Source: Pseudotamlana agarivorans (GTDB taxonomy: Bacteria; Bacteroidota; Bacteroidia; Flavobacteriales; Flavobacteriaceae). From it: a DNA stretch of 64,000 bases. Position numbers and translations under genes: made by a program. This document shows positions 20,595 to 62,140 of the stretch, one piece after another (the stretch's first letter is position 1; every line of letters starts with the position of its first letter). The stretch lies in NCBI RefSeq assembly GCF_018860245.1, contig NZ_JAHKPD010000013.1:186001-250000 (forward strand), written 5' to 3'. Below the pieces are notes generated by a model. The model had not been told where the DNA came from. It saw only the letters and a list, made by a program, of their open reading frames with translations, and did not search any database.

Positions 20595-20653
20595 ATTGAG
20601 CAAAAGATAGATAATTATAAATGGTTGGATTTTGAAATAAATAAATAAGTTTG
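20595..20653 (+). promoter_or_regulatory. Shared PUL element plus -7 box upstream of susC
   Basis: ATTGAGCAAAAGATAG (20595-20610) is closely similar to the 40-bp elements at 33794 and 35884 (AGCAAAAG.TAG in common). The start of its GAGC core at 20598 lies 48 nt upstream of a perfect TAnnTTTG box (TAAGTTTG, 20646-20653). The spacing is the same as in front of the fucosidase genes. The rest of the 658-bp spacer (20115-20773) holds only the terminator and AT-rich sequence. It is inferred to be an activator site for the susCD operon. Confidence 0.55.
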
Positions 20654-20773
20654 TTTTCGGATATAAATTCTTACTAAGAATCTGTTAATGTTTTATCAAC
20701 GTAGGCGAGCAGTTTTATTATCTGTAAATATTTAACAAAAAAAATAACTAACCACAAACTAAACGATAATACC

Positions 20774-23700
20774 ATGAAAAAAATTTTAAGCATTTTTTTA
20801 GTTATGGCATCACTATCTCTTTTTGCACAACAGAAGGAGGTTACGGGTAAAGTAACTAATAAAGACGGGGTTCCTATGCCAGGAGCTTCAGTAATTGTAA
20901 AAGGAAGTAAAAGAGGTGCGATGACCGATTTTGATGGAGAATATTCCATATCGGCCCAAACTGGAGAGGTGCTTTCGTACTCCTACATTGGAATGGAAGA
21001 TAAAGAAGTAACGGTGGGTGCCGCTTCTGTTATAAATGTTGCTTTAAATGATTCTAATGAAGAATTAGAAGAAATTGTTGTTGTGGGTTATGGGACTGTT
21101 AAGAAAAGTGATTTAACAGGGTCGGTGTCTCAAGTTAAAGGAGAGGAATTAACAAAAATTGGCGCTATTAGTTTCGATCAAGCCTTGGCTGGGCGAGCTG
21201 CAGGTGTAGTTGTACAACAAAGCTCTGGACAACCAGGTGGTGGCGCGAATGTTAGAATTAGAGGGATTAGTTCATTAAGTGGAAGTGATCCTTTATATGT
21301 AATTGACGGTGTACCATTGGAGAATAACTCATCATCAGGGTTGGGTGATCAAGATCAGGCAAGTGCATCATTAAGCCCTTTGTCAATGATTAATCCTGAA
21401 GATATTGAATCTATAGAAATTCTTAAAGATGCTTCCTCAACAGCCATTTATGGTTCTCGTGGTGCTAATGGTGTTGTTTTAATTACAACAAAACAAGGGA
21501 AAATAGGAAAAGGTGTAATAACCATCCAAACCGATTATGGGCTTACTGAGGTGCCTAGCTATATTGATGTTTTAGATTCTAACAACTTTGTTAGGTTACA
21601 AATGGAAGCCAAGGTAAATGGAGGTGGTACTCTTGAGCCTGAAAATATTACACAACTAGATTCAGCAAGGGCAGGATTGTTACCAACAACAAAGTGGCAG
21701 GAAAGTGTTTTAGGTTTAGGAACAAGGTCTAATACTAATTTAAGTTTTAGTGGTGGTACTGAAGCTATGAATTACCTTATTTCATCTAATTTATTTGATT
21801 CTGAAGGTGTTATTCCTGAAACTAATTTTAATCGTGTTTCAACTAGGATCAATCTTAATGCTAAAGTTAAAGAAAAATTGAAGGTTGGTGTTAATGTAAA
21901 TTATGCACATATAACTTCCGATCAAAGAGCTGTCAATACAGGTGTTAATGAACTTAAAGGGGCGTCAAACGCTATTCGTAGAGCCCTTAGGGCTGCTCCT
22001 ACTAATGGATTGGATGCCGATGATGAAGATTTAGACCCTAATACATTTACACCATTAACTGCTTTAGAGGCTAATAATTATGAGAATGTGTTAACGCAGA
22101 TACAGGGAAATGTGTATTTAGAATATGATATTATAGATGGGTTGAAATTTAGAACGCAATTGGGCTATCAGAATAGAAATACGACACAGCGATACTATCA
22201 GCTAAATACTTTAGGTTTTGGCCTTGAAGGCGGAACCGCAAGAACAGGAGACGGCCGACACCTATCAACGTCAATGACAAATACATTAAATTTTAACAAA
22301 AAATATGGTAAACTACATGCCTTTAATGCAGTTTTAGGTCAATCGTTAGAGTCTTATGAGTCAGAAACGGTACGTGTATCTAATTACGGGTTTGCCAATG
22401 ATTTACTTACCTATTATACACCAGGGCTTGCAACATTTTATGATCCAGATATCGTACAGTATACGAATAATAAGTTAGCCTCTTTCTTTGGAAGGGTTAA
22501 TTATACACTTAATAGAAAGTATTTATTTACTGTTACTGGTCGTTACGATGGCGCTTCAAAATTTGCATCAAATAAAAAATGGGCATTTTTCCCAGCAGCT
22601 GCTTTTGGGTATAAACTTTCTGAGGAAAATTTCATGAAAGATTCCAATGTCATATCTAATATGAAGCTACGTGTTAGTTACGGTACTTCTGGTAACCAAG
22701 CTATTCAACCTTATCAATCATTAGATCAATATGGTAGCGGGATACTTCCTTTTGGAGAACAACCAACAGCCGTATACTACCAACAGCAATTGCCTAACCC
22801 GGATTTAACTTGGGAAACGACAACACAATTTGATGTAGGTTTAGATTATGGGTTGTTACATAATAAAATTTCGGGAAGTTTTGAATATTACGAAAAATTA
22901 ACTGATGATTTATTATTTTCTGGAAATAGAATACCAGTTCAATCAGGTTTTGAAAATTACACTAAAAACTTCGGAACCTTATTAACCAAAGGTTTTGAAG
23001 CAAGTATAACGGCTAATATTGTTGCTACTGAAGATTTTTCATGGACACTAAATGCTAATTTTAGTACGGGTAAAACAACAATTCAAGACATGGCATCTAA
23101 TTATGTGTTTAGCGGATGGGATCCGGGGTATATTTCTGGAGGTTCACAACGCTTAATAATTGGAGAAGAAGTAGGAACATTTTGGGGGTATAAAACACAA
23201 AATATTGCTCAGTTTGATGATTTTGTTGAATTTCAAGGACTTACTGAAGAAGAACGTGTTAATAAATATAAAGCCAATCCTGCTGCAACCTATACTTTTG
23301 TTAATGGATTTAAAGGAGGAGTTCCTGAAAATGGTACTCAGAATCGTCCAGGAGAACAACTTTATGAGGATATAAATGATGATGGGGAACTTTCAGAAGA
23401 TGATAGACAAATTATTGGTCAGGCACAACCAGATTATATGTTTGGTATAAATAATTCATTTACAATTGGAAACATAGACATTAGTATTTTTATCGATTCT
23501 CAATTAAATAAAGATGTTGCAAATATTCCTAATCTAGAGCTATTATCGTTTAATGGAAGTCAGTCAATTACCGATGCTATTGGCAGATGGACACCAGAAA
23601 ACCAAAATAATGAATGGCCAAGAATGGATGCATCCAATGATAGAAGAGCTCCTTTTAGTGATATGGTTATTGAAGATGGTTCATTTGTTCGTATTCAAAA

Positions 23701-23923
23701 CCTAACAATAGGTTATAGTTTACCTAATACGGTGCTTGAAAAGATAAAATTCAAGGGTTTCAGAGTGTATGTGTCAGGATCTAATTTAGCAGTGTGGACT
23801 AAATATACTGGGCTAGGTCCAGATGTGTCTTTAGCGGGGTCCAATGCAACATCTATGGGGCATGACAATGCGGCTTATCCTGTAGGAAGAGTAATTACTT
23901 TGGGTGCTAATATAAAATTCTAA
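20774..23923 (+). CDS. susC: SusC-family TonB-dependent outer membrane transporter
   Basis: A 1049-residue SusC homolog that, with its SusD partner, imports oligosaccharides across the outer membrane. It has a signal peptide (MKKILSIFLVMASLSLFAQ) and a carboxypeptidase-regulatory-like domain (residues about 22-95: VTGKVTNKDGVPMPGASVIV, TDFDGEYSI). The SusC signature EELEEIVVVGYGTVKKSDLTG is followed by the plug (about 115-240: LAGRAAGVVVQQSSGQPGG, IRGISSL, PLYVIDGVP, ESIEILKDASSTAIYGSRGANGVVLITTK). The beta-barrel ends in VGRVITLGANIKF. Length is normal for the family. It is followed after 24 bp by the SusD gene, so the two form an operon. A shared upstream element and a perfect -7 box lie in front. 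Confidence 0.96.
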   Translation: MKKILSIFLVMASLSLFAQQKEVTGKVTNKDGVPMPGASVIVKGSKRGAMTDFDGEYSISAQTGEVLSYSYIGMEDKEVTVGAASVINVALNDSNEELEEIVVVGYGTVKKSDLTGSVSQVKGEELTKIGAISFDQALAGRAAGVVVQQSSGQPGGGANVRIRGISSLSGSDPLYVIDGVPLENNSSSGLGDQDQASASLSPLSMINPEDIESIEILKDASSTAIYGSRGANGVVLITTKQGKIGKGVITIQTDYGLTEVPSYIDVLDSNNFVRLQMEAKVNGGGTLEPENITQLDSARAGLLPTTKWQESVLGLGTRSNTNLSFSGGTEAMNYLISSNLFDSEGVIPETNFNRVSTRINLNAKVKEKLKVGVNVNYAHITSDQRAVNTGVNELKGASNAIRRALRAAPTNGLDADDEDLDPNTFTPLTALEANNYENVLTQIQGNVYLEYDIIDGLKFRTQLGYQNRNTTQRYYQLNTLGFGLEGGTARTGDGRHLSTSMTNTLNFNKKYGKLHAFNAVLGQSLESYESETVRVSNYGFANDLLTYYTPGLATFYDPDIVQYTNNKLASFFGRVNYTLNRKYLFTVTGRYDGASKFASNKKWAFFPAAAFGYKLSEENFMKDSNVISNMKLRVSYGTSGNQAIQPYQSLDQYGSGILPFGEQPTAVYYQQQLPNPDLTWETTTQFDVGLDYGLLHNKISGSFEYYEKLTDDLLFSGNRIPVQSGFENYTKNFGTLLTKGFEASITANIVATEDFSWTLNANFSTGKTTIQDMASNYVFSGWDPGYISGGSQRLIIGEEVGTFWGYKTQNIAQFDDFVEFQGLTEEERVNKYKANPAATYTFVNGFKGGVPENGTQNRPGEQLYEDINDDGELSEDDRQIIGQAQPDYMFGINNSFTIGNIDISIFIDSQLNKDVANIPNLELLSFNGSQSITDAIGRWTPENQNNEWPRMDASNDRRAPFSDMVIEDGSFVRIQNLTIGYSLPNTVLEKIKFKGFRVYVSGSNLAVWTKYTGLGPDVSLAGSNATSMGHDNAAYPVGRVITLGANIKF

Positions 23924-23947
23924 ACAACTAACTAAAAAAACATTAAA

Positions 23948-25597
23948 ATGAATATAAAATTTAAAATAGGCGTATTAGCGATTATAGGAATGATGTCTTC
24001 CTGTGAAGATTATCTTGTTGAAGAACCACCAATTTTTATTTCTGCGAGTAATTATTGGCAAACTGAAGGAGATGCTAGAACTGCTGTTGACGGGGCTTAT
24101 GAGCAACTACACTCACAACATAATAGATGGTGGGCTTGTGTAGATGCATATACTGATGATCAAGTAAATCGGTCTGATGACGATTTTGGTAGCCACACGG
24201 TGTCCTCTACAACCGATATGTGGGAACGTTTTGATATTTATAGAGACTGGTGGAGAGGTATTGGTAGAGCCAATAATGTCATTGAGAATGTCCCTTCTAT
24301 AGATATGGATAATGATGAGAAAAATGCCATATTAGGGGAGGCAAGAGCTTTAAGAGCCCTTTATTATTTTCACCTAGTGAAGAATTGGGGAGATCAACCG
24401 CTTATGGATTCGGCTGTAAAAGTTGAAGCCGATTTTAAAAAACAAAGGGTAGATACAGATATTATTTACGATGATATTATCATACCAGATTTAAAATTTG
24501 CCGAAGAATTTTGTAAAGACCAATTGCATGATGGGCATATCACAAAGTGGTCTGCAAAAATTATTTTAGCAGATGTTTACTTAACCAGAGCGGGTTGGAG
24601 AATGACCTCGAAAGGTGATAAGGTACAAGGAGATCCAGTTAATTGGGAATTAGCAAAAGAAAAAGCTAAGGATATTATTGATAATTCACCACACGCATTA
24701 AATACAGTAGGAAAAGTTGATGGTAAAATTGTTACGCCTGCATATGGCATGTCATGGGATCTTGATAATCCGTTTACGCCAGAGTCTATGTTAGAAATTT
24801 CTTATTACCCGGTACTGGGATTAGGGAATTGGATGAGTCGTGAAAGTAATCCTCATGCTTTTGGGGTAGGATACTGGGGTGGTGCTAATGATACACCATT
24901 AATTTCTGAGGGTATTACTCAAACTGTAAGACAAATGGATTTCCCAGGAAATCCTCCTGGTGTGGGGCGATATATTCCAACTCCAGATTTTTATGATGCT
25001 TTCGAGCCTGGAGATGAAAGACGCGATTATAGTATCTTGACACGTTTCGATACTAATGATGGCGGTACTTATTTATGTCAGCCTACTTTTAGAAAGTATA
25101 TCGATATTTCTTACTATGTTGGTGAGGAAGGAACAAGCTTTCAGTATACGAACTCAAACATTATTCTTTATCGTTATGCAGATGCTCTTTTAATATATGC
25201 TGAAGCTCAAAATGAAGCAGATGGTAGTCCAAATGGAGATGCTTATAATGCTATTAATGAGATTAGAAACAGAGCAGGTTTAGCGAACTTAACACCTGGT
25301 TTAGCACAGTCCGATTTTAGAGATGCTGTATTACAAGAAAGAAGGGTAGAGCTTAATGCCGAGTTTAAACGTAAAAGTGATTTAAGAAGAACAAATAGAT
25401 TGGCTTCTGCAACTGCCAATATAAATCTGGATTGGAGTCCAGCCCAAGGAGCCGCAGGTGATTATAGAAGAGTAGGTGCATTATATTATGCTAACCGTTA
25501 TCCTTATCCTGATCATGAATGGATATGGCCTATTCCAGAATCTGAAATGCAATTAAATTCAGAGAATAACTGGTACCAAAACGCTGGTTATAAGTAG
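23948..25597 (+). CDS. susD: SusD/RagB-family glycan-binding lipoprotein
   Basis: A 549-residue surface lipoprotein (signal MNIKFKIGVLAIIGMMSSC, lipid Cys19). It forms the lid of the SusC transporter and helps bind the glycan. Family features are an N-terminal TPR-like part (ASNYWQTEGDARTAVDGAYEQL, NAILGEARALRALYYFHLVKNWGDQPL), and a C-terminal RagB part (IILYRYADALLIYAEAQNEADG, AINEIRNRAGL, VLQERRVELNAEFKRKSDLRRT). The end WIWPIPESEMQLNSENNWYQNAGY is typical. The operon ends at the terminator at 25612. Confidence 0.95.
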   Translation: MNIKFKIGVLAIIGMMSSCEDYLVEEPPIFISASNYWQTEGDARTAVDGAYEQLHSQHNRWWACVDAYTDDQVNRSDDDFGSHTVSSTTDMWERFDIYRDWWRGIGRANNVIENVPSIDMDNDEKNAILGEARALRALYYFHLVKNWGDQPLMDSAVKVEADFKKQRVDTDIIYDDIIIPDLKFAEEFCKDQLHDGHITKWSAKIILADVYLTRAGWRMTSKGDKVQGDPVNWELAKEKAKDIIDNSPHALNTVGKVDGKIVTPAYGMSWDLDNPFTPESMLEISYYPVLGLGNWMSRESNPHAFGVGYWGGANDTPLISEGITQTVRQMDFPGNPPGVGRYIPTPDFYDAFEPGDERRDYSILTRFDTNDGGTYLCQPTFRKYIDISYYVGEEGTSFQYTNSNIILYRYADALLIYAEAQNEADGSPNGDAYNAINEIRNRAGLANLTPGLAQSDFRDAVLQERRVELNAEFKRKSDLRRTNRLASATANINLDWSPAQGAAGDYRRVGALYYANRYPYPDHEWIWPIPESEMQLNSENNWYQNAGYK

Positions 25598-25611
25598 AAC
25601 TTGAATACTAT

Positions 25612-25640
25612 AAAGGGCATCGAAAGGGGTGCCCTTTTAA
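25612..25640 (+). terminator. Terminator after susD
   Basis: The stem AAAGGGCA / TGCCCTTT has an A/G-rich loop and a modest T-run behind it. It separates susCD from the enzyme operon. Confidence 0.65.
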
Positions 25641-25667
25641 CTTATTTTTTGTTTAGTTTTTTGTCGT

Positions 25668-25688
25668 ATACCAAACGCTAGCGGGTAT
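25668..25688. promoter_or_regulatory. Imperfect palindrome upstream of the 25725 gene
   Basis: ATACC and GGTAT flank the 8-bp palindrome CGCTAGCG (25676-25683), unusually GC-rich for this spacer and 37 bp before the start codon. It could be an operator or a leader hairpin. Function unknown. Confidence 0.25.
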
Positions 25689-25724
25689 GATTCCAATAAA
25701 TTTTTAAAACAAAAGCTTGAGATA

Positions 25725-26852: not shown

Positions 26853-26893
26853 GGATATTAAAATTCATTTGAATTTTACGAAAAAAAAATATA

Positions 26894-28354: not shown

Positions 28355-28360
28355 AAATAT

Positions 28361-29701: not shown

Positions 29702-29727
29702 ACGGTTTTAAAATAAATTTGACATAT

Positions 29728-33793: not shown

Positions 33794-33859
33794 TGTCGAG
33801 AATAAGCAAAAGTTAGCAAGAAATGAGTTAAGGGTACTTCTGTTAGGATATTATTTTTG
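33794..33859 (+). promoter_or_regulatory. Shared PUL element plus -7 box upstream of the divergent GH29 gene
   Basis: A 40-bp block (33794-33833) is repeated at 35884-35923 with a single mismatch. Inside it are three related 7-mers, AATAAGC, AGTTAGC and AATGAGT, starting at 33801, 33811 and 33822, one helical turn apart. A TATTTTTG -7 box lies at 33852-33859, 48 nt from the start of the AAGC core, and no -33 TTG is seen. That fits an activator-dependent promoter. The rest of the 300-bp spacer (33607-33909) shows nothing else. Confidence 0.6.
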
Positions 33860-33909: not shown

Positions 33910-35517
33910 ATGAGAAAAACTTTCCTACTACTTTTTACAGCCTGTTTAACCTTATTATCTATTGGGGTAAAAGCACAAGCAGACCCAAACAGTCCTAATA
34001 ATTATGACCAGAAAAGCTATGGCATATTTGTACATTATGGTTGGGGTGGCGATGAAAATGCGCTATATGGTTGTCAGATCACACCCAATCCAGACGGTTC
34101 TACATATCCAAAAAGTGTGGATGAAACAGCTAATAATTTTGACCTGGATGGTTTTGTAGATGATATCGCTGCTATGAGTCCTGAATACTTAATATTTACG
34201 GTGTGGCATTGTGGGATGAATCCACTATACCCGAGTGCTAAAATGGAAGAATGGCTAGGTCCAGGACACAGTTCTCAGCGTGATGTTGTTCAAGAATTGT
34301 TAGATGCCTGTGACGCAAGAGGTATTGATGTTTATTTTTATATTCAACCTTCAGAAGCACATGATTTCTCTCCTGAAGAACAGGCAAAAGTTGGCTATAT
34401 TAATCAAAACAAGCCAGAAGTTAAATACAACGACTTTATCAATGAAGTTATTGCCGAACTTACCGAACGTTATAAGTCACAATTTAAAGGCTACTGGTTC
34501 GATAAAGGTTTAAACTACCGTTGTACTAATACAGAACGTATAGGAAATACAGTTAGAGCGATTATGCCTGATGCAGTTTTAATTGGTAATGGTCATTCTA
34601 ATGTGAGTGCAGATTTTGGAGCGGTTGAAACAAAGAATCCAAAAGTTACTTTCGAAAGAGATGGGTATACTGGTATTAATAATAATGATGAGAATACTTG
34701 GCCGGCCTACGAGCGATCTATTTCTTTTGTGTCTGACAGAAGTTGGGCTGCTGAACCTGGAAGTATTCGCTACTCAAGTGAGCAAATGTATAAATATACC
34801 GTTCTAGAAGCTGGTGTAAATGAAGAAGGTGGTGGAGTAGCTTGGGCTATAGGCCCATATCCAACTACAACCATATCTTGGAATTCGGGTATCGTAGCTG
34901 GCATGACAGGATTAGGCACTTTAATTGATGCCGTAGCAGAGTCTATTAAAAGTACCATACCTAGTGATTCTTGGCCAACACCTGAAGGCACAACCATCAA
35001 CGATTTAACTTGGGGAGTTGCGACAAGATCGGCCGCTGGTAACTTTGAATACCTTCACGTATTGAAAGCCCCGTCTGGAAATACTCTAAGTATCGACGCA
35101 CCTGCCGATGGCAGACAGTACGATACAGCTGTTAACTTGCGAACAGGAAAAACTTGTAGCCTAACACAAACAGCAAACCAATTAACAGTAACCTTAGACG
35201 GGAGTGATTCTTGGGACACGGTAGATTCAGTTATTAAGCTAACGAGTAGCACACTTTCAACAAATAATCAAAAAGAAGTAAAGGAATTTACTATTTACCC
35301 GAATCCAACAAGTGATAAAATTCATATAAGATCGAATCAAAATGGTTCCAGTGATGGTACAGTAGAAATAATTAATTTACAAGGTAAGTTAGTGAACAAT
35401 ATGCCATTGAAATCATTTCCTATGGTTTTGAATACTAGTGAATTGAAAGAAGGGTTCTATGTGTTGAAAATTAAAACAGAAAGCGGTACGTCTATTCATA
35501 AAATAATTAAAAAATAG
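33910..35517 (+). CDS. Divergent GH29-like (alpha-L-fucosidase-like) protein with T9SS tail
   Basis: A 535-residue secreted protein with a signal peptide (FTACLTLLSIGVKAQ). The TIM barrel of the GH29 type starts at YGIFVHYGWGGDENALYGC. The usual KHHDGF motif is replaced by TVWHCGMNPLYPS. The nucleophile strand reads FKGYWFDKGLNYRC (D198). Residues about 455-535 are a T9SS C-terminal domain (FTIYPNPTSDKIHI ... ELKEGFYVLKIKTESG ... IIKK), so it is exported to the cell surface or medium. It has its own promoter with the shared PUL element. Function as a fucosidase is likely but not certain given the altered active-site motif; another glycosidic bond is possible. Confidence 0.7.
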   Translation: MRKTFLLLFTACLTLLSIGVKAQADPNSPNNYDQKSYGIFVHYGWGGDENALYGCQITPNPDGSTYPKSVDETANNFDLDGFVDDIAAMSPEYLIFTVWHCGMNPLYPSAKMEEWLGPGHSSQRDVVQELLDACDARGIDVYFYIQPSEAHDFSPEEQAKVGYINQNKPEVKYNDFINEVIAELTERYKSQFKGYWFDKGLNYRCTNTERIGNTVRAIMPDAVLIGNGHSNVSADFGAVETKNPKVTFERDGYTGINNNDENTWPAYERSISFVSDRSWAAEPGSIRYSSEQMYKYTVLEAGVNEEGGGVAWAIGPYPTTTISWNSGIVAGMTGLGTLIDAVAESIKSTIPSDSWPTPEGTTINDLTWGVATRSAAGNFEYLHVLKAPSGNTLSIDAPADGRQYDTAVNLRTGKTCSLTQTANQLTVTLDGSDSWDTVDSVIKLTSSTLSTNNQKEVKEFTIYPNPTSDKIHIRSNQNGSSDGTVEIINLQGKLVNNMPLKSFPMVLNTSELKEGFYVLKIKTESGTSIHKIIKK

Positions 35518-35883: not shown

Positions 35884-35949
35884 TGTCGAGAATAAGCAAA
35901 AGTTAGCAAGAAACGAGTTAAGGATGTACTTTTTTGTGTGCTAGATTTG
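35884..35949 (+). promoter_or_regulatory. Shared PUL element plus perfect -7 box upstream of GH29
   Basis: The second copy of the 40-bp block (35884-35923, 39 of 40 bases equal to 33794-33833) is followed by a perfect TAnnTTTG box (TAGATTTG, 35942-35949) at exactly the same spacing as the first copy. Outside the element the two spacers differ, which argues for selection on the block itself. Confidence 0.65.
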
Positions 35950-36099: not shown

Positions 36100-37890
36100 A
36101 TGAAGAGAAAATTAATTGCCTTGTGTTTGCTAGCCACGATAAGTTTAGTACATGCACAAAAAAAAGGAAAAAGTAATGAAAGCATGGATAAGTTATGGGG
36201 TGAAACAGGTGTTTCCTCTGATGCACTTAAATCTGGAAAAGCAAAACTTTTTGATGAAAGTAATTTTGGCATGTTTATTCATTGGGGCTTATATTCCCAC
36301 TTAGGTGGTGTATGGAATGGTAAAACCTATTATGGTATTGGAGAATGGATAAAATCTAAAAATGTAGCCAGTATTCCAGATGATGAGTATATGGCTGTGG
36401 CCAAAGAATTTAATCCTACAAAATTCGATCCTAAAGCCATTGCAAAATTGGCTAAAGATGCAGGTATGAAATACATTGTCATCACTAGTAAACATCATGA
36501 AGGTTTTGCGATGTTCGATTCAAAAGTAAATGATTTTAATATTGTTAAAGCCTCACCTTATGGTCGTGATCCTATGAAAGAATTATCGGCGGCTTGTCGA
36601 GAAATTGGACTAGGTTTTGGGTTTTATTATTCTCATAATCAAGACTGGACAGCCCCAGGAGGACATAAAGGTCCAAAGGTTGATGAAAACGGAAAACCAG
36701 CAACTTTTAAAGATTATTTCTATAATAAATGTAAACCTCAAGTAAAAGAAATCTGTACTAATTATGGCGAAATCGATTTTGTTTGGTTCGATACGCCAGG
36801 GAAAATGCCTAAGGAATATGTGCTTGAATTGGAAAAGATGGTACGTAAATTACAACCTAATGCGATGCTAGGAAGTCGTATTGGATATGGGTTAGGAGAT
36901 TATGCGAGTGAAGGCGATATGGAAGTACCAAATCGAAATATTGAAGGCTTATGGGAAACTTGCGATACCAACAACGACTCGTGGTCTTATGCGTGGTACG
37001 ATAATAATTTTAAAAGTCCTAAACTTATTTTAGAACGTCTTATCGCTACGATCGGTCGTGGAGGCACTTATTTATTTAATGTAGGGCCAGATGGTACAGG
37101 AACGATTCCCGAAATTGGGCAAAAATTTTTACGAGAAGCTGGTAAATGGATTAAAAAACACCCGCAAGTTGTTTATGGTGCAGGAAGTTCTCCTTGGAAA
37201 CATGCTTTAGCCTGGGGTGATGTCACCACTAAAGGGAATTCTTTATTTCTATCGGTTTACGATTGGCCACAAGATAAAAAATTGTACTTGCCAGGATTGA
37301 AAACAAAAATTCTATCTGTAAATGCGGTGGGAGGTACAGCTGCAGAGAAAATTACTTTCGATCAGCAAAAAGATTGGACGGTTTTAAATGTGCCTTATCA
37401 ACCTATAAATGATTTGATTTCTGTTATTGAATTAAAATTAGATACTAAGGTAGAGGAGGTTTCTGTAGATTCAAATTATGGGGTTTATCCAAATATTGAA
37501 AATCACTTATTGGCTGAATTCGCTGAGGTAACAAACGCAGAAAAGAAGGAAATTAAATGGATGGAGAAATTTGGAGAATGGATACATGTGAAGCAAATTA
37601 GTAAATGGAAAAAAGATAGTAAAGCAGAATGGACCGTGAATGTGCTTAAACCAGGTTATTATTACTTAGATTTAAAATATAAGGGCAGTGGACGATTAGT
37701 TTGGAAAACCATTACAGATGAAGGTGTTTTGGTACAAAATCAACAAGCGGCTACCGAAAAATTCGTGTATTATAACATGGGTATTTTAGAGTTTAAAACT
37801 GCAGGAATGCATAAGATTTCAGTGTCTTTAGTTGAAGGAGATCCTGAAACCTCCAGCCTTGAGGCTGCTAAAATTACGCCAATTAAATAG
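36100..37890 (+). CDS. Alpha-L-fucosidase, GH29
   Basis: A 596-residue secreted enzyme (signal peptide MKRKLIALCLLATISLVHAQ). GH29 motifs are NFGMFIHWGLYSHLGGVWNG, ITSKHHEGFAMFDSKVNDF, GFYYSHNQDWTAPGGHKG, EIDFVWFDTPGKMP with nucleophile D231, and GRGGTYLFNVGPDGTGTIPE. A C-terminal beta-sandwich (about 400-596) follows. It resembles the fucosidase at 4082 in the WFDTP and YYS.(N/D)QDW motifs, so those two probably share a specificity distinct from the one at 28361. There is no lipobox, so it is probably periplasmic. It is preceded by the shared PUL element and is likely co-transcribed with the GH28-fold gene at 38133. Confidence 0.92.
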   Translation: MKRKLIALCLLATISLVHAQKKGKSNESMDKLWGETGVSSDALKSGKAKLFDESNFGMFIHWGLYSHLGGVWNGKTYYGIGEWIKSKNVASIPDDEYMAVAKEFNPTKFDPKAIAKLAKDAGMKYIVITSKHHEGFAMFDSKVNDFNIVKASPYGRDPMKELSAACREIGLGFGFYYSHNQDWTAPGGHKGPKVDENGKPATFKDYFYNKCKPQVKEICTNYGEIDFVWFDTPGKMPKEYVLELEKMVRKLQPNAMLGSRIGYGLGDYASEGDMEVPNRNIEGLWETCDTNNDSWSYAWYDNNFKSPKLILERLIATIGRGGTYLFNVGPDGTGTIPEIGQKFLREAGKWIKKHPQVVYGAGSSPWKHALAWGDVTTKGNSLFLSVYDWPQDKKLYLPGLKTKILSVNAVGGTAAEKITFDQQKDWTVLNVPYQPINDLISVIELKLDTKVEEVSVDSNYGVYPNIENHLLAEFAEVTNAEKKEIKWMEKFGEWIHVKQISKWKKDSKAEWTVNVLKPGYYYLDLKYKGSGRLVWKTITDEGVLVQNQQAATEKFVYYNMGILEFKTAGMHKISVSLVEGDPETSSLEAAKITPIK

Positions 37891-41353: not shown

Positions 41354-41413
41354 GAAATGAGCAAGCAATGAGCTGTTATCGAGGCTAATGAGAGGTGTTG
41401 TTTGATAATATTG
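41354..41413 (+). promoter_or_regulatory. Shared PUL element plus -7-like box upstream of the small T9SS protein
   Basis: GAAATGAGCAAGCAATGAGC contains an exact 7-mer direct repeat AATGAGC (41356 and 41367, 11-bp period). The -7-like box TAATATTG (41406-41413, one mismatch to TAnnTTTG) lies 47 nt from the start of the first GAGC core. The spacer 41090-41455 otherwise contains only the terminator. Confidence 0.5.
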
Positions 41414-41455
41414 TAAGTGTTAAAACAAGAATCCTTAAACCAAAACTTTTTTATT

Positions 41456-42265
41456 ATGAAAAAACAATTACTATTATCAATGGCAGTTTTATTTGGGTCA
41501 TTAACAATGACGGCTCAAAATATCGTTACGACAACAATGGATAATCAGGCTTTTGCAATGGGAACGAATACAACGTTACCTGTTCATACCTGGGCGGCAA
41601 CTTCCGGTAGAGCAAGCGTTATAGGAGCGGGTCATCAATTGAGAGGTACTTCAAATACTAATATGGATCTCGCGGCTACACTGGAATTTGATCTTCAAAC
41701 AGCATCGGGTACTGTAGATGGCAAACTTTCATTTGATTTTGGTAAAGTTGTAGATACTGAAGTGCAAATAGAAGTTACTGTAGGTACACAAGCGACACAA
41801 ACTTTTACGTTTACAGGAAATAAGGGAGAAACTAATCTAACAACCTACGAGTTATTTCCTGTCGAGTACAATGGCGATATAACCTTTTCGACAACACCTA
41901 TTCATGTTAAATTTGACATTATTGATTTAGATAAAAGCCCTGATGTTAACAATACTACTTTGCCAGGAGTAAGGATATATAGTGTTAACGTAGATAAGAG
42001 CAATGGGACTCTGGCTACAGAAGGTGTTATAGCAAACGAAAACAAATTCACCTTGTTCCCTAATCCTACAAAAGATAGTTTTCAGTTAAACGCAAAAGCG
42101 AATCAAAACGTAAAAAATGTAGCTGTTTACAATATGGTTGGTCAATTAGTAAAATCTTTTGCACCTTCTTATAAATACGACACAAGTAGCCTTGCAAGTG
42201 GCGCTTATGTTATTAAAATATCGACCGATAATGGTTATGATACAATTAAGCTGCTTAAAAATTAA
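41456..42265 (+). CDS. Small secreted T9SS-tail protein of unknown function
   Basis: The start is the ATG at 41456 (MKKQLLLSMAVLFGSLTMTAQ, a clear signal peptide); a GTG at 41417 is open upstream. It has 269 residues. Residues about 22-190 form one beta-rich domain (TTTMDNQAFAMGTNTTLPVH ... LEFDLQTASGTVDGKLSFDF ... VQIEVTVGTQATQTFTFTGN ... PGVRIYSVNVDKS) that I do not recognise. It could be a carbohydrate-binding beta-sandwich. The last 75 residues or so are a T9SS sorting domain (FTLFPNPTKDSFQL ... YNMVGQLV ... LASGAYVIKISTDNG). It has its own promoter with the shared PUL element and a downstream terminator, so it is monocistronic and probably induced with the locus. Confidence 0.75.
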   Translation: MKKQLLLSMAVLFGSLTMTAQNIVTTTMDNQAFAMGTNTTLPVHTWAATSGRASVIGAGHQLRGTSNTNMDLAATLEFDLQTASGTVDGKLSFDFGKVVDTEVQIEVTVGTQATQTFTFTGNKGETNLTTYELFPVEYNGDITFSTTPIHVKFDIIDLDKSPDVNNTTLPGVRIYSVNVDKSNGTLATEGVIANENKFTLFPNPTKDSFQLNAKANQNVKNVAVYNMVGQLVKSFAPSYKYDTSSLASGAYVIKISTDNGYDTIKLLKN

Positions 42266-44323: not shown

Positions 44324-44383
44324 GAAATGAGCAAGTATTGACTGAATTGAGAGGTTCGTTTATAGCCATATTCTATATTATTG
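44324..44383 (+). promoter_or_regulatory. Shared PUL element plus -7-like box upstream of GH95
   Basis: GAAATGAGCAAGTATTGACT followed by GAATTGAGAGG (44324-44354) shows three related repeats about 10 bp apart. A TATTATTG box (44376-44383) lies 47 nt from the start of the first GAGC core. The 368-bp spacer also holds the terminator at 44092 and a TAGCGCA direct repeat (about 44298 and 44312) of unknown meaning. Confidence 0.5.
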
Positions 44384-44402: not shown

Positions 44403-46895
44403 ATGAAAATAGTAAGTTATAGAATATTAGGATTCCTTACCTTAATATTACTCTTAAATTGTTCAAGTGTTACAAATCCAGAACCGCCTAAAGAGACTAG
44501 TCATAGTATGACTATGATCACACCTGCTAGCCAATGGAGAGAGGGTTTGCCTTCTGGAAATGGAACAGTTGGGGCTTTGGTTTATGGGGCAATTTATCAA
44601 GAACGTGTACTATTTAATCACAACAAACTTTGGTATGGAGGTAAAACTGATGATTTACCCGATTTATCTGCAGAACTTCCTGTGGTAAGAGCATTAATGC
44701 TTAATGGTGATTACTTGAAAGCTAATAAACATTATAGTAACAAATTAAAGCAAGCAGGTTTTTCGGCTAAAGCTGGACGTTTTCACCCTGCATTTGATTT
44801 ATTACTTACTACCGAAAATGAATTCATGTTTCAGGATTATTCAAGAACCCTAAATTTTGAAACTGGGGAGGTTGCCGTAAATTGGCGCGATGGCGAAACC
44901 AAATTTTCCAGACGATTGTTTGTCTCTATTCCAGATAATGTTTCAGTAATGTCTATTCAGGCAGATAAAAAAAATGCAATTTCTGGAAAGGCCACTTTAG
45001 ATATTCATGATTTGAATGATGCCATTGATAGAGAAGGGAATTTATTTGACCCTGGCTTTAAATATATAACAACTACTGAAGGTGAATTTGTGAAATTTAA
45101 ATCTACAGGTTCAGATGGTGGTGAGTTTGGCGGTGTTATGAGGGTGCTTACAAAAGGTGGCGCTGTACATACAGAATCTAAAAGTATTTCATTTGATAAT
45201 ACAGATACTGTCACTTTAATTATAAGTTTTTTTGCTAATGAAGATAGCGAAATTGCTTTTCCAAGATTAAAGAAGGAATTATTAGAAATCAATACAAATT
45301 ACGAAACACTCTTTAATAGACATAAGGCATTACATAGCGAAAGGTTTAATGCTATGGGGGTCCATATTAACCAAAGTAAAGAAAATAACACTCCAAATGA
45401 ATTATTGCTTTTAGAGGCTTATCAAGGCGATATTTCTACCGAATTAAATCAGAAACAATTCGATTATGGGAGATATTTACTCATATCTAGTAGTCGAGGC
45501 GGGGGGTACCCTGCGAACTTACAAGGCATTTGGAACGGTGATTATCGTCCGCCTTGGAATTCATTTTATGGTATTAATGAAAATTTGCAAATGAATTATT
45601 TGCAAGGACTTCCGGGGAATCTTAAAGAATCCATGATGGCATTCTACGATTATTTTGATGCCAATATGGATGAGTTTAGAACCAATGCCAAACAGCTTTA
45701 TGGAACTCGCGGGATTTTTATTCCACCATTCATGTCTCCAGAATCTGCTAAACTACGTGTTACAGCACCACATGTTATTTATTGGACTGATGCAGCAGGG
45801 TGGTTAGCTTCCTTTTATTATGATTATTATTTGTTTACTGGCGATGAAGAATTTTTGAAAAACAGAGCCATTCCTTTTATGAAAGAAGTGGGGCTTTTTT
45901 ATGAAGATTTTATAGTGAAAGATAAACAAGGGAAGAATATGTTTTTTCCATCGCAATCACCCGAAAATCAGCCAATAGATAAAACGGTTATTGATCCAGA
46001 AACGGGTAGGTTGTCTAAAATTAAAGTTCAGATGAATGCTACCATCGCAGTGGCAGTTTCAAAAGAAGTGTTTACAAATCTAATAGCCTCATGCGAACTT
46101 CTAGGCATAGAAAAAGACGGGGTTTCAAGATGGAAAAATATTTTGGAAGCTATGCCAGATTATCAAATTAATGAGGATGGTGCTTTGAGTGAGTGGATGC
46201 ACCCAGATTTTAAAGATAATTACGAGCACCGCCACCAATCGCATATTTATCCTTTGTTTCCAGGACATGAATTTAGTCAAGAAAAAACACCAGAATTATA
46301 CAAAGCCAGTAAGGTAGCCATTGAAAAAAGATTGCGTATCGGACTTAAGTCACAAACGGGTTGGTCTTTGGCACACATGGCTAATGTTTATGCGCGTTTA
46401 GGCAATGGGCAAAAGGCTAAAGAGGCTTTAGATATTCTAGTTAGAAGTTGTTTAGGTAAAAATTTGTTTACCTACCACAACGATTGGCGAAATATGGGCG
46501 TTACAGTTTCTCTTAAAAATGGTAATTCTGCACCTTTTCAAATAGATGCTAATATGGGTATAACGGCTGCTGTAACAGAAATGCTTTGTGGTTCGGATGC
46601 CAAAATGTTACGCATTTTACCAGCATTACCTTCCGAATGGGCAAAAGGAAATTTTCATGATATGCTTACGCGAGTGGGAGTTAAAACTTCAGTGGAATGG
46701 GATATGAATGAACATAAAATTACTATAACGCTTGTCGCGGAAAGAGATACCCAATTTGATTTGAAATTTTCAAAAGCACCAACCGAAATTAATTGTAATA
46801 CAGAGGATGTGATTAAAGAATCAAGTTTTGGAAAAGAATATAGATTATTGAATTTAAATAAAGGGCAGGAAATAAAGCTGAATGTTACTATATAG
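44403..46895 (+). CDS. GH95 alpha-L-fucosidase/galactosidase lipoprotein
   Basis: An 830-residue lipoprotein (LTLILLLNC) with the full GH95 layout. The N-terminal beta domain begins MITPASQWREGLPSGNGTVGALVYG and continues FNHNKLWYGG. The (alpha/alpha)6 catalytic domain has SSSRGGGYPANLQGIWN, YGINENLQMNYL (N392 and N394 probably match the two catalytic Asn), FMKEVGLFYEDF, QSPENQP and the conserved HRHQSHIYPLFPG. A C-terminal beta domain follows. GH95 enzymes are inverting; known members cleave alpha-1,2-L-fucose or alpha-L-galactose. Together with the GH29 genes it supports a fucose-rich substrate. Its promoter carries the shared PUL element. Confidence 0.93.
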   Translation: MKIVSYRILGFLTLILLLNCSSVTNPEPPKETSHSMTMITPASQWREGLPSGNGTVGALVYGAIYQERVLFNHNKLWYGGKTDDLPDLSAELPVVRALMLNGDYLKANKHYSNKLKQAGFSAKAGRFHPAFDLLLTTENEFMFQDYSRTLNFETGEVAVNWRDGETKFSRRLFVSIPDNVSVMSIQADKKNAISGKATLDIHDLNDAIDREGNLFDPGFKYITTTEGEFVKFKSTGSDGGEFGGVMRVLTKGGAVHTESKSISFDNTDTVTLIISFFANEDSEIAFPRLKKELLEINTNYETLFNRHKALHSERFNAMGVHINQSKENNTPNELLLLEAYQGDISTELNQKQFDYGRYLLISSSRGGGYPANLQGIWNGDYRPPWNSFYGINENLQMNYLQGLPGNLKESMMAFYDYFDANMDEFRTNAKQLYGTRGIFIPPFMSPESAKLRVTAPHVIYWTDAAGWLASFYYDYYLFTGDEEFLKNRAIPFMKEVGLFYEDFIVKDKQGKNMFFPSQSPENQPIDKTVIDPETGRLSKIKVQMNATIAVAVSKEVFTNLIASCELLGIEKDGVSRWKNILEAMPDYQINEDGALSEWMHPDFKDNYEHRHQSHIYPLFPGHEFSQEKTPELYKASKVAIEKRLRIGLKSQTGWSLAHMANVYARLGNGQKAKEALDILVRSCLGKNLFTYHNDWRNMGVTVSLKNGNSAPFQIDANMGITAAVTEMLCGSDAKMLRILPALPSEWAKGNFHDMLTRVGVKTSVEWDMNEHKITITLVAERDTQFDLKFSKAPTEINCNTEDVIKESSFGKEYRLLNLNKGQEIKLNVTI

Positions 46896-50162: not shown

Positions 50163-50192
50163 TCTACTAATTTATTTTCAACCTTAAATCTC

Positions 50193-55897: not shown

Positions 55898-56484
55898 TAG
55901 TATGGCAAGTTTGCAGATAAATACAGGTTTTTAGTGAAATGTTTGTTCGAGAGAAGCGGGCATTCATATCATTGAAAATGATCACTGTATTGTAATTAAA
56001 ACTGGTTATTCTGATTAATTTCAGATTCTCTTCATCTTAATAACCAGTCATTATAAGAACCTGATTCAAGTTTGGGTAGTCCAAAATTTAACTTTAAGAC
56101 CATTTCGGACGAGCCTTTCTTGATGAAATTTTTTTGAATACCCTCAATGTGTTATAAATATTGAGAATGTCACCGTGAAATTGTTTCGGGGTCACATAGA
56201 GATACTCATATATGGTCTGATGGGTGCTGAAATCGAAGATTTAACCGAGTTAAATGAATTCAGCACGACGCAAAGACAAGAATATGATATTAAATGGATA
56301 ATCAAAAAGAGTGTTTAATACCATAAATTTTCAAAGAAAAAGCAGCCTTAAAAGCAGGTGCTCTTATCACATTAACTCTAAAATTAAAATTACGAAACAG
56401 ACACACAAAAAAAATCATACTAACCATATGATTCTTGTTTGAATATCAATTCAAACGCAGTATAAACTAGTAAAACTAAATAAG
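55898..56484. other. 587-bp spacer with inverted repeat, no clear gene
   Basis: No gene is supported here. A 10-bp perfect inverted repeat (ACTGGTTATT at 56001, AATAACCAGT at 56039) encloses a smaller hairpin (TCTGA..TCAGA, 56010-56025). A start-less 63-codon frame ends at 56318 and contains INIENVTV, faintly like the GH28 motif YIENVTLENI. I cannot claim it as a remnant. No copy of the shared PUL element is seen. Confidence 0.35.
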
Positions 56485-58656: not shown

Positions 58657-58754
58657 TAATCATATAAAAGAGACGGTTTAAATAAAGGCTAAAACAGAAT
58701 TTTTCTGAAAGTACAATTTTTGAATAGTCTCTTTTATTCTAACATTCAACCCTC

Positions 58755-61700
58755 ATGTTAAATAATAAAATAATAAAAAAAATTTTAGTGATTTTATCAA
58801 TCACATTAAGTATGCTATGCTTTTCTCAGACTGTTGGACCCTGGGATTTAGATGAGCTATATGAAGTACCTGAATGGGAAGCAACCACGCTTGCCCAAAA
58901 AGATGGCGTTACGAGTCTATTATTTAGTTCTCTGGATTATCTGGGGAATCCCGTGCAAGTCTTTGCCTATTATAGTGCACCTAGCGGTACCATGCCTGCG
59001 GGCGGTTGGCCAGCAATGGTTCATGCCCACGGCGGTGGGGGTACGGCTTACTCACAATGGGTGAACTACTTTAACGACCAAGGTTATGCTGCTATAAGTT
59101 TAGATTTAGAAGGCCATATTCCCACAGAAGACGCGAATGGCGCCTATCTGCCTTCTCCAAACCCTGGCCCAAGCAGAAGTGGTGTGTTTAATGATTATGC
59201 CAACCCAGTGGAAGAACAATGGTTTTATCATGCCATAGCACAGGTTATTATCGGCCATACCTTAATAGGGTCTTTTCCTGAAGTAAATGCCAATAAAATT
59301 GGACTTAGTGGTGCCAGTTGGGGAGGTACCATTACAAGTACAGCAATGGGTGTTGATAACAGATGGTCATGGGCTATTCCTGTATATGGGGCAGGCTATT
59401 TAGATGATTCTGATGGTGCTCAAGGAAACAATATTAGCGGTGCTAAAGCTGATTTTGTAAATCAATATTATGATGCTTCAGTGTATTTTGATAGGGTGGA
59501 CTTTCCTGTTTTATTTATTAATGGAACAAACGATTATAATTTTGCGATGCCAGTAACCCAAAATTCAGCAAAACATGTGAATGGTAATATACTATTTTCA
59601 TTACGCTTTGGACACAGTAATTTGGCACCTTTAAGACTTGATGAGCTTTATACTTTTGCCAATCAAGTGACTTATGGTACTGATGCCTTACCTGCTTTTG
59701 GATCGCCAAGTTTCGATGCTTCGAATGTGGCGACTGTAAATGTCGCTTCTGAGGCAGGATTAAGCAGTGCCGAATTGCTTTATACACTTGATGATGGTTA
59801 TTGGTACGAGCGTGAATGGTTAGCGACAACAGCAACAATATCCGGAAATATACTTTCTGCTACATTGCCAGAAAACACGGTGGCTTTCTATTTTGCAGCT
59901 ACAGATTCACGTGGTCTAATGACGACTTCAGAATATGTTGAAACGCATGGTGGAACAATTCCTTCAGGTAATCCTAACGTTGCTATTTATGGTACAGCAT
60001 CTCAATCGTCAACCGATTATTCTGGTGAAGCTTCAAGAGCCATAGATCAAAATGCAAGTGGGGTATATTCTGATGGTTCTGTATCGCATACTTCCGCAGA
60101 AGATAATGCTTGGTGGCAAGTCGATTTGGTTGGTTCTCATAGCATAGATGAAATTGTTGTTTTCAATCGAACTGATGCTGGCTATCAGGCAAGAATGACA
60201 AATTTCACGGTATATATTATTAATAGTGATGATGAAATTACTTTTTCTCAGTCATTTAATAATTATCCAGACCCTTCAGTAACTATTGAAGCCAATGGCG
60301 CTGTTGGAAGTGTCGTAAAAGTACAGTTGGACGCTACCAATACGCCGTTAACCCTTGCTGAGGTTCAAGTATATGAAGTTGAAAACACGCCTGTTTCGGT
60401 GACTTCAGTGGGTGTTTCTCCAGAAAATGCATCCGTAGCGGTTGGAAATTCATTATTATTAATGACAACTGTAACGCCCTTAGATGCCACCGATCAAACT
60501 GTAAATTGGAGAAGTAGTAATTCCGCAGTTGCAACGGTTAATGAAACCACTGGGTTAGTAACGGCTTTAAGCACTGGTTCTGCCATAATTACGGCAACAA
60601 CAACCGATGGTGAATTTACAGATAATAGTTTTATTACAGTTACCAGTACATCATCTGGTAGCGATAATCTTGCCATATACGGTACGGCATCACAATCTTC
60701 AACGGCATATGGGGGGCAAGCTTCACGTGCTATTGATGGCAACAGTAGCGGTGTATGGTCAGAAAGTTCAACGACGCATACAGCTAATGAAACTAACCCT
60801 TGGTGGGAAGTTGATTTAGGTTCTGCTAGAAGTATTGGTGATATTGTCGTTTTTGGAAGAACAGACTCATGCTGCAAGACGCGTTTAACAAATTTTACGG
60901 TTACGGTTATGGACGGAGATCGAAATACCGTTTTCTCACAAGCGTTTACTGCCTTTCCAGATCCTTCAATCGCCATTGAAACTGGTGATGTCATCGGGCA
61001 AATCGTTCAGGTTCAGATAGACGGAACAAATCCATTATCATTAGCTGAAGTTGAGGTGTATGCCGGAGTATATGAAGTGTCAAATCTTGCGTTAAACGGG
61101 ACAGCATCGCAGTCTACAACTGCTTATACTGGCGAGGCTTCACGTGCTATAGACGGGAACACGACTGGGGGATGGAATGCTGGTTCTGTAACACATACCG
61201 AAGCTATAAGTAATTCGTGGTGGATGGTTAACCTAAATGGTAATTATACCATAGAGGAGGTAACGATTTTTAATCGTACCGATACGCGTTACATGAGCAG
61301 GTTAAATAATTTCACTTTAGAGGTGCTAAATAACGAAGATAATGTGGTCTACACACAAACAATCACAAGCACGCCTAATCCTTCAGTAACTATAAATGTT
61401 GGTGAGGTTACAGGCAATCGCGTGAGAATATCACAGAACAAAGCATCCACAGCCTTATCATTAGCTGAGGTTGAAGTATATGGTTCTGCAGCTTCAGTAA
61501 CAGCCAAATCAAGCCTTGATAAAACCAACATGAAAGCCGAATATGAACCGGTATTTAAAATCTTCCCAAATCCAGTTGAAAATTTTGTGACTGTTAAACT
61601 AGAAATGGCAGCGATTTCAGCATATAAATTAATTAATATCACAGGGCAAGTCGTTCTTTCGGGTGTTATAAACCATGTTTCAAATGTGCTGGATTTAACA

Positions 61701-61778
61701 AGTTTTACACCTGGTGTTTATTTTTTAGAAGTGTCAAACGGAACAATAACACAAAGAAAAAGAGTAGTTAAAAAATAA
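58755..61778 (+). CDS. Large secreted alpha/beta-hydrolase esterase with three fucolectin-type modules, a Big_2 domain and T9SS tail
   Basis: A 1007-residue protein. The first 400 residues or so are almost the same as the esterase at 50193 (AHGGGGTAYSQW, GLSGAS188WGG, FINGTNDYNFAMP, LRFGHSN). Then follow a fucolectin-like module (about 406-545, NRTDAGYQARM), a bacterial Ig-like Big_2 domain (about 546-634, VTSVGVSPENASVAVGNSLL ... STGSAIITATTTDG), a Cys-pair module (about 636-772, GRTDSCCKTRL), a further module (about 776-912, NRTDTRYMSRL) and a T9SS tail (about 930-1007). It is expected to deacylate a fucose-rich glycan while held to it by several binding sites. The catalytic part is well supported; the acyl group and sugar are unknown. 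Confidence 0.8.
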   Translation: MLNNKIIKKILVILSITLSMLCFSQTVGPWDLDELYEVPEWEATTLAQKDGVTSLLFSSLDYLGNPVQVFAYYSAPSGTMPAGGWPAMVHAHGGGGTAYSQWVNYFNDQGYAAISLDLEGHIPTEDANGAYLPSPNPGPSRSGVFNDYANPVEEQWFYHAIAQVIIGHTLIGSFPEVNANKIGLSGASWGGTITSTAMGVDNRWSWAIPVYGAGYLDDSDGAQGNNISGAKADFVNQYYDASVYFDRVDFPVLFINGTNDYNFAMPVTQNSAKHVNGNILFSLRFGHSNLAPLRLDELYTFANQVTYGTDALPAFGSPSFDASNVATVNVASEAGLSSAELLYTLDDGYWYEREWLATTATISGNILSATLPENTVAFYFAATDSRGLMTTSEYVETHGGTIPSGNPNVAIYGTASQSSTDYSGEASRAIDQNASGVYSDGSVSHTSAEDNAWWQVDLVGSHSIDEIVVFNRTDAGYQARMTNFTVYIINSDDEITFSQSFNNYPDPSVTIEANGAVGSVVKVQLDATNTPLTLAEVQVYEVENTPVSVTSVGVSPENASVAVGNSLLLMTTVTPLDATDQTVNWRSSNSAVATVNETTGLVTALSTGSAIITATTTDGEFTDNSFITVTSTSSGSDNLAIYGTASQSSTAYGGQASRAIDGNSSGVWSESSTTHTANETNPWWEVDLGSARSIGDIVVFGRTDSCCKTRLTNFTVTVMDGDRNTVFSQAFTAFPDPSIAIETGDVIGQIVQVQIDGTNPLSLAEVEVYAGVYEVSNLALNGTASQSTTAYTGEASRAIDGNTTGGWNAGSVTHTEAISNSWWMVNLNGNYTIEEVTIFNRTDTRYMSRLNNFTLEVLNNEDNVVYTQTITSTPNPSVTINVGEVTGNRVRISQNKASTALSLAEVEVYGSAASVTAKSSLDKTNMKAEYEPVFKIFPNPVENFVTVKLEMAAISAYKLINITGQVVLSGVINHVSNVLDLTSFTPGVYFLEVSNGTITQRKRVVKK

Positions 61779-61848
61779 GTTGTACATATAAAAACCATAT
61801 TACATTTTAGGTTAAGCATTAAAACCCAAGATGATTTGAATTATGTAG

Positions 61849-61883
61849 ACCGTCTAAAGAGTCATTTTTAGGCGGTTTTTTTT
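61849..61883 (+). terminator. Rho-independent terminator
   Basis: The stem ACCGTCTAAA / TTTAGGCGGT (one G-T pair) is followed by eight T. It ends the second cassette. Confidence 0.85.
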
Positions 61884-61984
61884 GCCATATAATGTGCATG
61901 CCTTATTGGGGTTGTTGTGTCTTTGTCGCCTTGAATCACTAATAATGGCGCACTAAATGTTTTCATGGCTTTGCTCAGACTGGT
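61868..61984 (-). pseudogene. Remnant of an alpha/beta-hydrolase gene (C-terminal piece)
   Basis: A 38-codon minus-strand frame after an in-frame stop at 61985 contains [20 protein letters not shown] and ends at 61868. The [10 protein letters not shown] pattern is the strand with the catalytic acid of alpha/beta-hydrolases. The frame continues upstream through that single stop as another protein-like stretch (about 61988-62070), which suggests a broken gene. It overlaps the terminator of the + strand cassette, so it is not expressed as a normal gene. Confidence 0.45.
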
Positions 61985-62080
61985 CTAGATTGCTAAGATG
62001 TTTAAGGTTTTAAATTTAGTATTGTTTTTTAAGGATTGATTTTCAGATGTTTTGAAATAGTATGGTTTTTTACTCAAGTC

Positions 62081-62140
62081 AAAATGAGCAAATATTGACT
62101 GATTTCGGTCTAATAGGTTTCTATTATTGTTTTATTTTAG
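62081..62140 (+). promoter_or_regulatory. Shared PUL element upstream of the last sulfatase
   Basis: AAAATGAGCAAATATTGACT (62081-62100) matches the GH95 element (44324) in 18 of 20 bases. A TATTTTAG box (62133-62140) lies 47 nt from the start of the GAGC core. A TATTATTG box, the same as at GH95, lies 11 bp closer (62122-62129). The rest of the 536-bp spacer holds the terminator and the minus-strand remnant. Confidence 0.5.

Follow-up and report, generated by a model that had tools for sequence, protein, structure and literature searches.

How the scattered transcription units of a polysaccharide utilization locus (PUL) come under common control is the question raised by a 64,000-nucleotide stretch of Pseudotamlana agarivorans DNA (hereafter the window; C24:186001-250000 of a 3.73-Mb genome). 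In the window, a gene for a hybrid two-component system (HTCS) lies beside susC and susD, and six spacers carry related elements; these precede susC, two glycoside hydrolase genes of family GH29 (GH29a and GH29b), a gene for a small protein with a type IX secretion system (T9SS) tail, a GH95 gene and a sulfatase gene. An earlier note on this DNA regarded the elements as helically phased operators at a fixed distance from TAnnTTTG-like -7 boxes, read by an activator such as the AraC-type domain of the HTCS. The HTCS gene product contains Reg_prop, Y_Y_Y, HisKA, HATPase_c, Response_reg and HTH_18/AraC domains in Pfam, so that a single polypeptide unites a sensor, a histidine kinase, a receiver and an AraC-type domain for DNA binding, as the definition of an HTCS has it. 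We consider the six elements to be, very probably, operators for this HTCS, which is predicted to act as a class II-like activator.

All six elements are located where the earlier note put them, with RAGCAA cores starting at 20598, 33804, 35894, 41359, 44329 and 62086, and the blocks at 33794 and 35884 indeed differ by one mismatch across 40 bp. The proposed core-to-box spacing of 47-48 nt also holds. It is 48 nt at the first three cores, where the box is an exact TAnnTTTG (susC and the two GH29 genes), and 47 nt at 41359, 44329 and 62086, where the box has one mismatch.

The decisive evidence comes from relatives. HTCS homologues were picked by protein similarity, and 14 of 397 genomes of the family, the own genome included, contain one at E <= 1e-200; this count and an earlier 5 of 199 are lower bounds, with two to three candidates scored per genome. 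With two named genomes added, Wenyingzhuangia sp. 2_MG-2023 (52% identity) and Winogradskyella arenosi (50%), the set comprised 17 loci (616,503 bp) chosen on HTCS similarity alone, including G170 (43%). Four homologues at 39-42% identity (a paralogue in the own genome, G345:C1, G383:C1:1842139 and G389) were excluded. A matrix from seven own sites, the six and one in the HTCS leader, was abandoned because it transferred poorly to relatives. The motif was first recognised by eye in spacers, when the set comprised seven loci (G129, G173a, G173b, G002, G170, Wenyingzhuangia and Winogradskyella), and then tested independently of that matrix; the other ten loci were added afterwards.

In noncoding sequence of the 17 loci, the distance from RAGCAA to TAnnTTTG peaks at 48 nt (n = 13) and 27 nt (n = 8), while every other distance from 1 to 130 occurs at most three times. 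These peaks represent 20 distinct sites in 10 of the 17 loci, and 13 of the 20 lie in the ten loci added after the motif had been recognised. Among all pentamers at all distances from the 187 boxes, AGCAA at 47 ranks top (16 occurrences) and AGAAA at 26 second (13), with AGCAA at 26 found nine times. In 78 loci of other HTCSs (1,469,430 bp, 404 boxes), AGCAA was found twice at 47 and never at 26; these loci, mostly from other families, are an unmatched control, and reversed sequences control composition better. The difference of 21 between the two peaks shows two half-sites 21 bp apart, of which the second stops 21 nt short of the box. In the operator unit, the 11-bp half-site GAWWWRAGMAA is repeated directly at 21 bp, or at 20 bp in some copies. 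Two conserved sites about 21 bp apart from centre to centre, the form of a direct-repeat HTCS operator, are found in the relatives.

A profile trained with one locus left out at a time (G323, G335 and G345 were all omitted when any one of them was scanned) scored 45 sites of the 17 loci above 12 bits, and 2 on the reversed sequence, compared with 2 versus 2 in the 78 other loci. The 12-bit threshold was chosen after the results at 8 bits, which were 59 versus 7 in the 17 loci and 4 versus 9 in the others. Thirty-nine of the 45 sites are noncoding and at most 500 nt from a start, and they are distributed over 12 of the 17 loci and at least nine genera; one of them (G129_15139), flagged as coding through an early GTG start, was counted as noncoding by hand. 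Of the six uncounted sites, five either fall inside reading frames or have no gene after them, and the sixth is 6.7 kb away from a start. The four excluded homologues showed 0, 0, 2 and 1 matches above 8 bits, none above 10.3. The predicted operator is conserved, by these counts, in 12 of the 17 loci of orthologous regulators.

A 48-site matrix, from which sites more than 80% alike were removed and whose pool includes 12 non-independent sites from loci chosen by the motif (G002:C14, G212 and G195), places GAWWWRAGCAA at -53 to -43 from the box start, a central TG at -37/-36 and GAWTWRAGMAA at -32 to -22. No conserved -33 element was found in this matrix between the second half-site and the box. 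Positions -46, -36 and -25 relative to the box hold a conserved G; their intervals of 10 and 11 bp explain the helical repeats 10-11 bp apart that the earlier note had described, but the dominant repeat is that of 21 bp. At 44324 and 62081 in the window, a half-site spacing of 20 bp coincides with the core-to-box distance of 47 nt, and the position of the downstream half-site is preserved.

Within the own genome, the exact 48-nt form (RAGCAA-N42-TAnnTTTG) has three matches in the window versus a mean of 0.06 in dinucleotide shuffles, and none of 100 shuffles reached three. Genome-wide there are seven, four of which lie upstream of genes within 45 kb at C24:206598-251480. The fourth of these, past the window end (C24:251425-251480, minus strand), has two GAGCAA half-sites 20 bp apart and lies upstream of a gene without a Pfam match (C24:250519-251388). 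The three matches outside the locus are not promoter-like: two are inside reading frames and one is in a spacer with no same-strand frame downstream within the 3-kb stretch inspected. When one mismatch was allowed anywhere in core and box, 98 matches were found in the genome and 98 in the reversed control. This one-mismatch search therefore gives no support to 41354, 44324 and 62081.

Three ranking procedures treat the six sites separately. When each site was left out and scored with a matrix built on the remaining five, the ranks were 6, 5, 6, 108, 7 and 6 in site order among 367,932 positions; training sites occupy most of the higher places, and the near-identical GH29 sites support each other. 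A profile from relatives only (near-identical sites G335 7830 and G345 37219 removed from training), run over about 368,000 positions of C24:126001-310000, ranked C24:169964 first, susC 2nd, GH29a 3rd, GH29b 6th, the site past the window end 7th and GH95 11th, the last with a score near background; the 41354 and 62081 sites were outside its top 30. A flexible-spacing scan of the own contig placed the site past the window end first (28.2), GH95 third (23.0), C24:169964 fourth (18.8) and GH29a fifth (16.7), followed by GH29b (10th), the sulfatase (15th) and susC (16th), with 41354 outside the top 22. The predicted operator is present before susC and before other genes of the locus that holds the regulator. 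The C24:169964 site, 16 kb before the window, lies 394 nt upstream of a TonB-plug SusC-like gene (C24:170358), after which comes a SusD-family gene; this SusC-like gene is perhaps a further regulon member.

The genes downstream of the sites are of recurring kinds. Pfam was applied to 49 of 51 such genes (G002c14_19758 and G195_15812 were left out). In the clade loci, the 39 genes comprise 8 sulfatases, 4 SusC-type receptors, 3 GH29, 1 GH95, 1 GH2, 1 AXE1-type esterase, 1 3-keto-disaccharide hydrolase and 1 aldehyde dehydrogenase, together with 14 whose products carry a T9SS tail but lack an enzyme domain and 5 assigned to no family. From G002:C14, G212 and G195, ten of 12 genes were classified as 4 sulfatases, 2 GH29, 1 GH95, 1 SusC-type, 1 T9SS-tailed and 1 without a family. 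Site-bearing SusC-type genes with 49-62% identity to the window SusC occur in G002:C14 as well as in four clade loci, of which two are nearly identical. Since no HTCS was found among the 49 scanned genes, autoregulation through the tentative element at 15858, itself outside the top 22 of the flexible-spacing scan of the own contig, is doubtful.

The association with the HTCS group also appears at the scale of genomes. In the 397 genomes, the exact two-half-site pattern with the box gave 20 matches versus 3 for the reversed pattern; 17 of the 20 come from genomes that also encode an HTCS homologue, and 13 are at most 30 kb from it. In the 14 HTCS-positive genomes, one-mismatch matches numbered 49 versus 7 reversed. 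A paralogous HTCS on the same contig (C24:69974-74023, 42% identity) is surrounded by GH29-, GH95-, sulfatase- and SusC-like matches, and the operator is absent above 8 bits in the 60 kb around it. The second recognition helix contains GIES in 16 of 18 members of the HTCS group (the 17 loci and the window HTCS), and outside the 39-42% paralogue group in no other row among the best 75 matches listed. A regulon under the AraC-type HTCS, as the earlier note proposed, is the best reading of these observations, with element and spacing both recurring, before genes of matching kinds, in 12 of 17 HTCS-chosen loci, and the 78 other-HTCS loci at control level. The regulator assignment rests on this co-occurrence and, since Bacteroides HTCS operators have the same architecture, the window HTCS is likely the activator. 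One HTCS homologue with a single in-frame TAA (G345:C4:250573-254730) stands in a locus with eight counted operator sites.

In genome G002, contig C14 contains nine sites and no HTCS-type DNA-binding domain in the 55 kb covered, and the HTCS is on contig C8. Since sites and HTCS are on different contigs, the regulon may include genes that are not near the regulator. A 224-aa frame on a third contig (G002:C12:1628863-1629213) has a stand-alone DNA-binding domain 59% identical to that of the window HTCS, apparently without a kinase part. We lean, with some reserve, toward a broader proposal, in which one HTCS group in many genera of the family would read one grammar, the GAWWWRAGMAA repeat at 21 bp and 27 nt from the -7 box, with some targets next to the regulator and others on different contigs.

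Several observations weigh against these readings. Most copies in the own genome have a degenerate second half-site, and no exact two-half-site match exists there. In the flexible-spacing scan, second rank fell to C24:178668, inside a reading frame, and the reversed-control maximum was 16.8, which among the six sites GH95 alone exceeds; GH29a, GH29b, the sulfatase and susC lie within the control range. No counted site above 12 bits was found in the stretches covered of five of the 17 loci (G207a, G207b, G229, Wenyingzhuangia and a 5.7-kb G170 fragment). The one-mismatch two-half-site pattern occurs in 108 of the 397 genomes, mostly without a detected HTCS homologue, and these matches are mostly background. 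The paralogous HTCS carries GIES though its locus has no operator, so the helix alone is a poor predictor of the motif and weak evidence. Two strong sites precede a sulfatase gene and a GH29 gene in G212, where no HTCS DNA-binding domain exceeds 45% identity, and in G195 (C1:465804-467254) two exact operator matches lie just past a 348-aa AraC-type frame with 39% identity. The 41354 site, with its leave-one-out rank, is the outlier of the six and is poorly supported.

The G212 and G195 sites are what would be expected if another regulator travelling with the loci, a stand-alone AraC, SusR-like or LacI protein, owned the motif and the HTCS were a bystander or a second input. A LacI-family gene (C24:252477-253556) does adjoin the locus, but LacI operators are usually palindromes, which counts against LacI as the reader. 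In G195, the same grammar is perhaps read by another AraC protein. Since the 17 loci were picked by HTCS similarity, yet show 45 sites versus 2 over the control while other HTCS loci lack the motif, we regard a different owner as quite improbable on this comparison, which covered HTCSs among the regulators of the loci; the repeat of about 21 bp also agrees with the HTCS form in the accessible text of PMC3878776. Likeness inherited through recent duplication of a promoter segment, which would imply no shared regulator, might account for the GH29 pair with its matching 40-bp blocks. However, what the sites of the 12 loci, drawn from nine genera or more, have in common is chiefly the half-sites, the central TG and the box, with little between them, a pattern expected from selection on a binding site. 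The distance peaks, the matrix and the held-out profile already largely contradict duplication, which we consider barely credible as an explanation.

A more serious alternative is that only the exact 48-nt sites (susC, the two GH29 genes and the gene past the window) are true operators, and that 41354, perhaps with 44324 and 62081, is a chance look-alike. The equality of the one-mismatch search with its control fits this explanation, as do the low standing of 41354 in all three rankings and that of 62081, which is outside the top 30 of the relatives-only profile and inside the control range of the flexible scan. The protein body encoded after 41354 also matches those after relatives' sites at best at E 0.016. 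On the other hand, 44324 is third and above the control in the flexible scan, and the 47-nt distance is paired with 20-bp half-site spacing in both 44324 and 62081. In addition, the clade sites precede genes of these very kinds (GH95 once, sulfatases eight times and T9SS-tailed proteins 14 times of 39). We therefore judge it rather unlikely that the inexact sites are chance look-alikes, though this deserves more weight than the other two alternatives.

For the HTCS as activator, the register of the operator suggests a mechanism. The earlier note had taken the frequent lack of -33 elements as a sign of an activator; we rejected this argument, since the accessible account of Flavobacterium johnsoniae promoters identifies no -33 motif in that species (PMC7366714). 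In Flavobacterium psychrophilum, the TAnnTTTG box is placed at -12 to -5 in the part of PMC9723704 available to us, which would put the half-sites at about -65 to -55 and -44 to -34. The downstream half-site, ending 21 nt before TAnnTTTG, would then lie beside the -33 position. An activator site abutting the -33 position is a class II arrangement. An oligosaccharide bound to the periplasmic propeller would lead to phosphorylation of the receiver domain, which would free the AraC-type domains; two of these may occupy the two half-sites on the same helix face. The downstream domain could touch RNA polymerase, resulting in joint activation of susCD, GH29, GH95, sulfatase and accessory genes.

Features of the window (positions counted from its first nucleotide); operators are predictions.
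Feature	Position	Strand	Details	Basis
Tentative operator-like element before HTCS gene	15858..15919	+	GAAATGAGTTA...GATTTCAGTTG and TATGTTTG, 49 nt apart	
HTCS gene	15951..20114	+	likely start ATG 15963; proposed regulator	Pfam
Predicted operator before susC	20593..20624	+	half-site GGATTGAGCAA (20593-20603); second half-site at +21 degenerate	
-7 box of susC	20646..20653	+	TAAGTTTG; 48 nt downstream of RAGCAA	
susC and susD	20774..25597	+		Pfam
Predicted operator before GH29a	33799..33830	+	half-sites AGAATAAGCAA and GAAATGAGTTA, spacing 21 bp	
-7 box of GH29a	33852..33859	+	TATTTTTG	
Alpha-L-fucosidase-family gene (GH29a)	33910..35517	+	T9SS tail	Pfam
Predicted operator before second GH29 gene	35889..35920	+		
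-7 box of second GH29 gene	35942..35949	+	TAGATTTG	
Alpha-L-fucosidase-family gene, second GH29 (GH29b)	36100..37890	+		Pfam
Weak predicted operator before small T9SS-tailed protein	41354..41384	+		
-7-like box	41406..41413	+	TAATATTG; 47 nt downstream of RAGCAA 41359	
Small T9SS-tailed protein	41456..42265	+		Pfam
Predicted operator before GH95	44324..44354	+	half-sites GAAATGAGCAA and GAATTGAGAGG, spacing 20 bp	
-7-like box	44376..44383	+	TATTATTG; 47 nt downstream of RAGCAA 44329	
GH95 gene	44403..46895	+		Pfam
Predicted operator before sulfatase	62081..62111	+	half-site spacing 20 bp; second degenerate	
-7-like box	62133..62140	+	TATTTTAG; 47 nt downstream of RAGCAA 62086	
Sulfatase gene	62315..63739	+		Pfam

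By Pfam, the window holds susCD, four GH29-family genes, one GH95 gene and eight sulfatase genes, one of them truncated by the window start, as well as GH28-, GHL15- and heparinase II/III-type genes and several T9SS-tailed proteins. The substrate of the locus looks like a sulfated, fucose-rich polysaccharide, a candidate suggested by this gene content. For the small T9SS-tailed protein, ATG 41456 is compatible with the box, and the listed GTG start at 41417 is incompatible. Candidate orthologues of this protein after relatives' sites were rejected once the tail was removed; it resembles the clade's T9SS-tailed group in type, with no significant match outside the tail. A pair of GHL15-type and AXE1-type genes occurs twice (48864-52094 and 56485-61778), the second copy with additional F5/8 type C domains. 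Beside the PUL, at C24:252477-259970, uronate catabolism genes are found: the LacI-family gene adjoins UxuA, UxaC and KduI family genes and a gene for a DctP-type binding protein.

HTCSs are a main polysaccharide-sensing route in Bacteroidota, and their operators were previously predicted for gut Bacteroides, as far as the accessible accounts go. An operator that can be checked, in another family and in exact register to the promoter, would allow a regulon to be defined, including genes distant from the regulator, and the fixed register offers a test of how HTCSs are positioned on a Bacteroidota promoter. If one grammar does serve the whole HTCS group, the operator alone could predict scattered flavobacterial genes that answer one sulfated fucose-rich glycan. 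In the open-access literature searched, supplements excluded, we recognised no description of the half-site or of the exact -7 register.

The closest known systems are the HTCS regulons of Bacteroides, of which 16 were predicted in the accessible text of Ravcheev et al. 2013 (PMC3878776), with operators that are direct repeats averaging 21 bp apart and interpreted as bound by a dimer on one side of the DNA. Our locus resembles these in its AraC-type HTCS beside susCD, its repeats of about 21 bp and their presence before several operons of one polysaccharide locus. It differs in the half-site GAWWWRAGMAA, in the HTCS group and in the family, and also in the fixed -7 box register, which does not appear in the Bacteroides operator descriptions of that accessible text. 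Purified fragments of receiver and AraC-type domains bind the HTCSs' own promoters, and electrophoretic mobility shift assays demonstrated binding of BT0366, BT4124 and BT4663 to their own PUL promoters, according to the portions of PMC5061871 and PMC11253607 available. These three HTCSs have the same domain order as the window HTCS, and the promoters bound by BT4124 and BT4663 drive susCD homologues. The carrageenan regulator CgrA of Zobellia galactanivorans, a positive regulator of the AraC family, likewise controls a dispersed algal-polysaccharide regulon in a marine bacterium of the same phylum; unlike the window HTCS, it is described as an AraC-family protein and not as an HTCS, and the available text of PMC5698469 describes no operator motif. 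The control architecture of the window thus belongs to a known kind, of which it is a new example.

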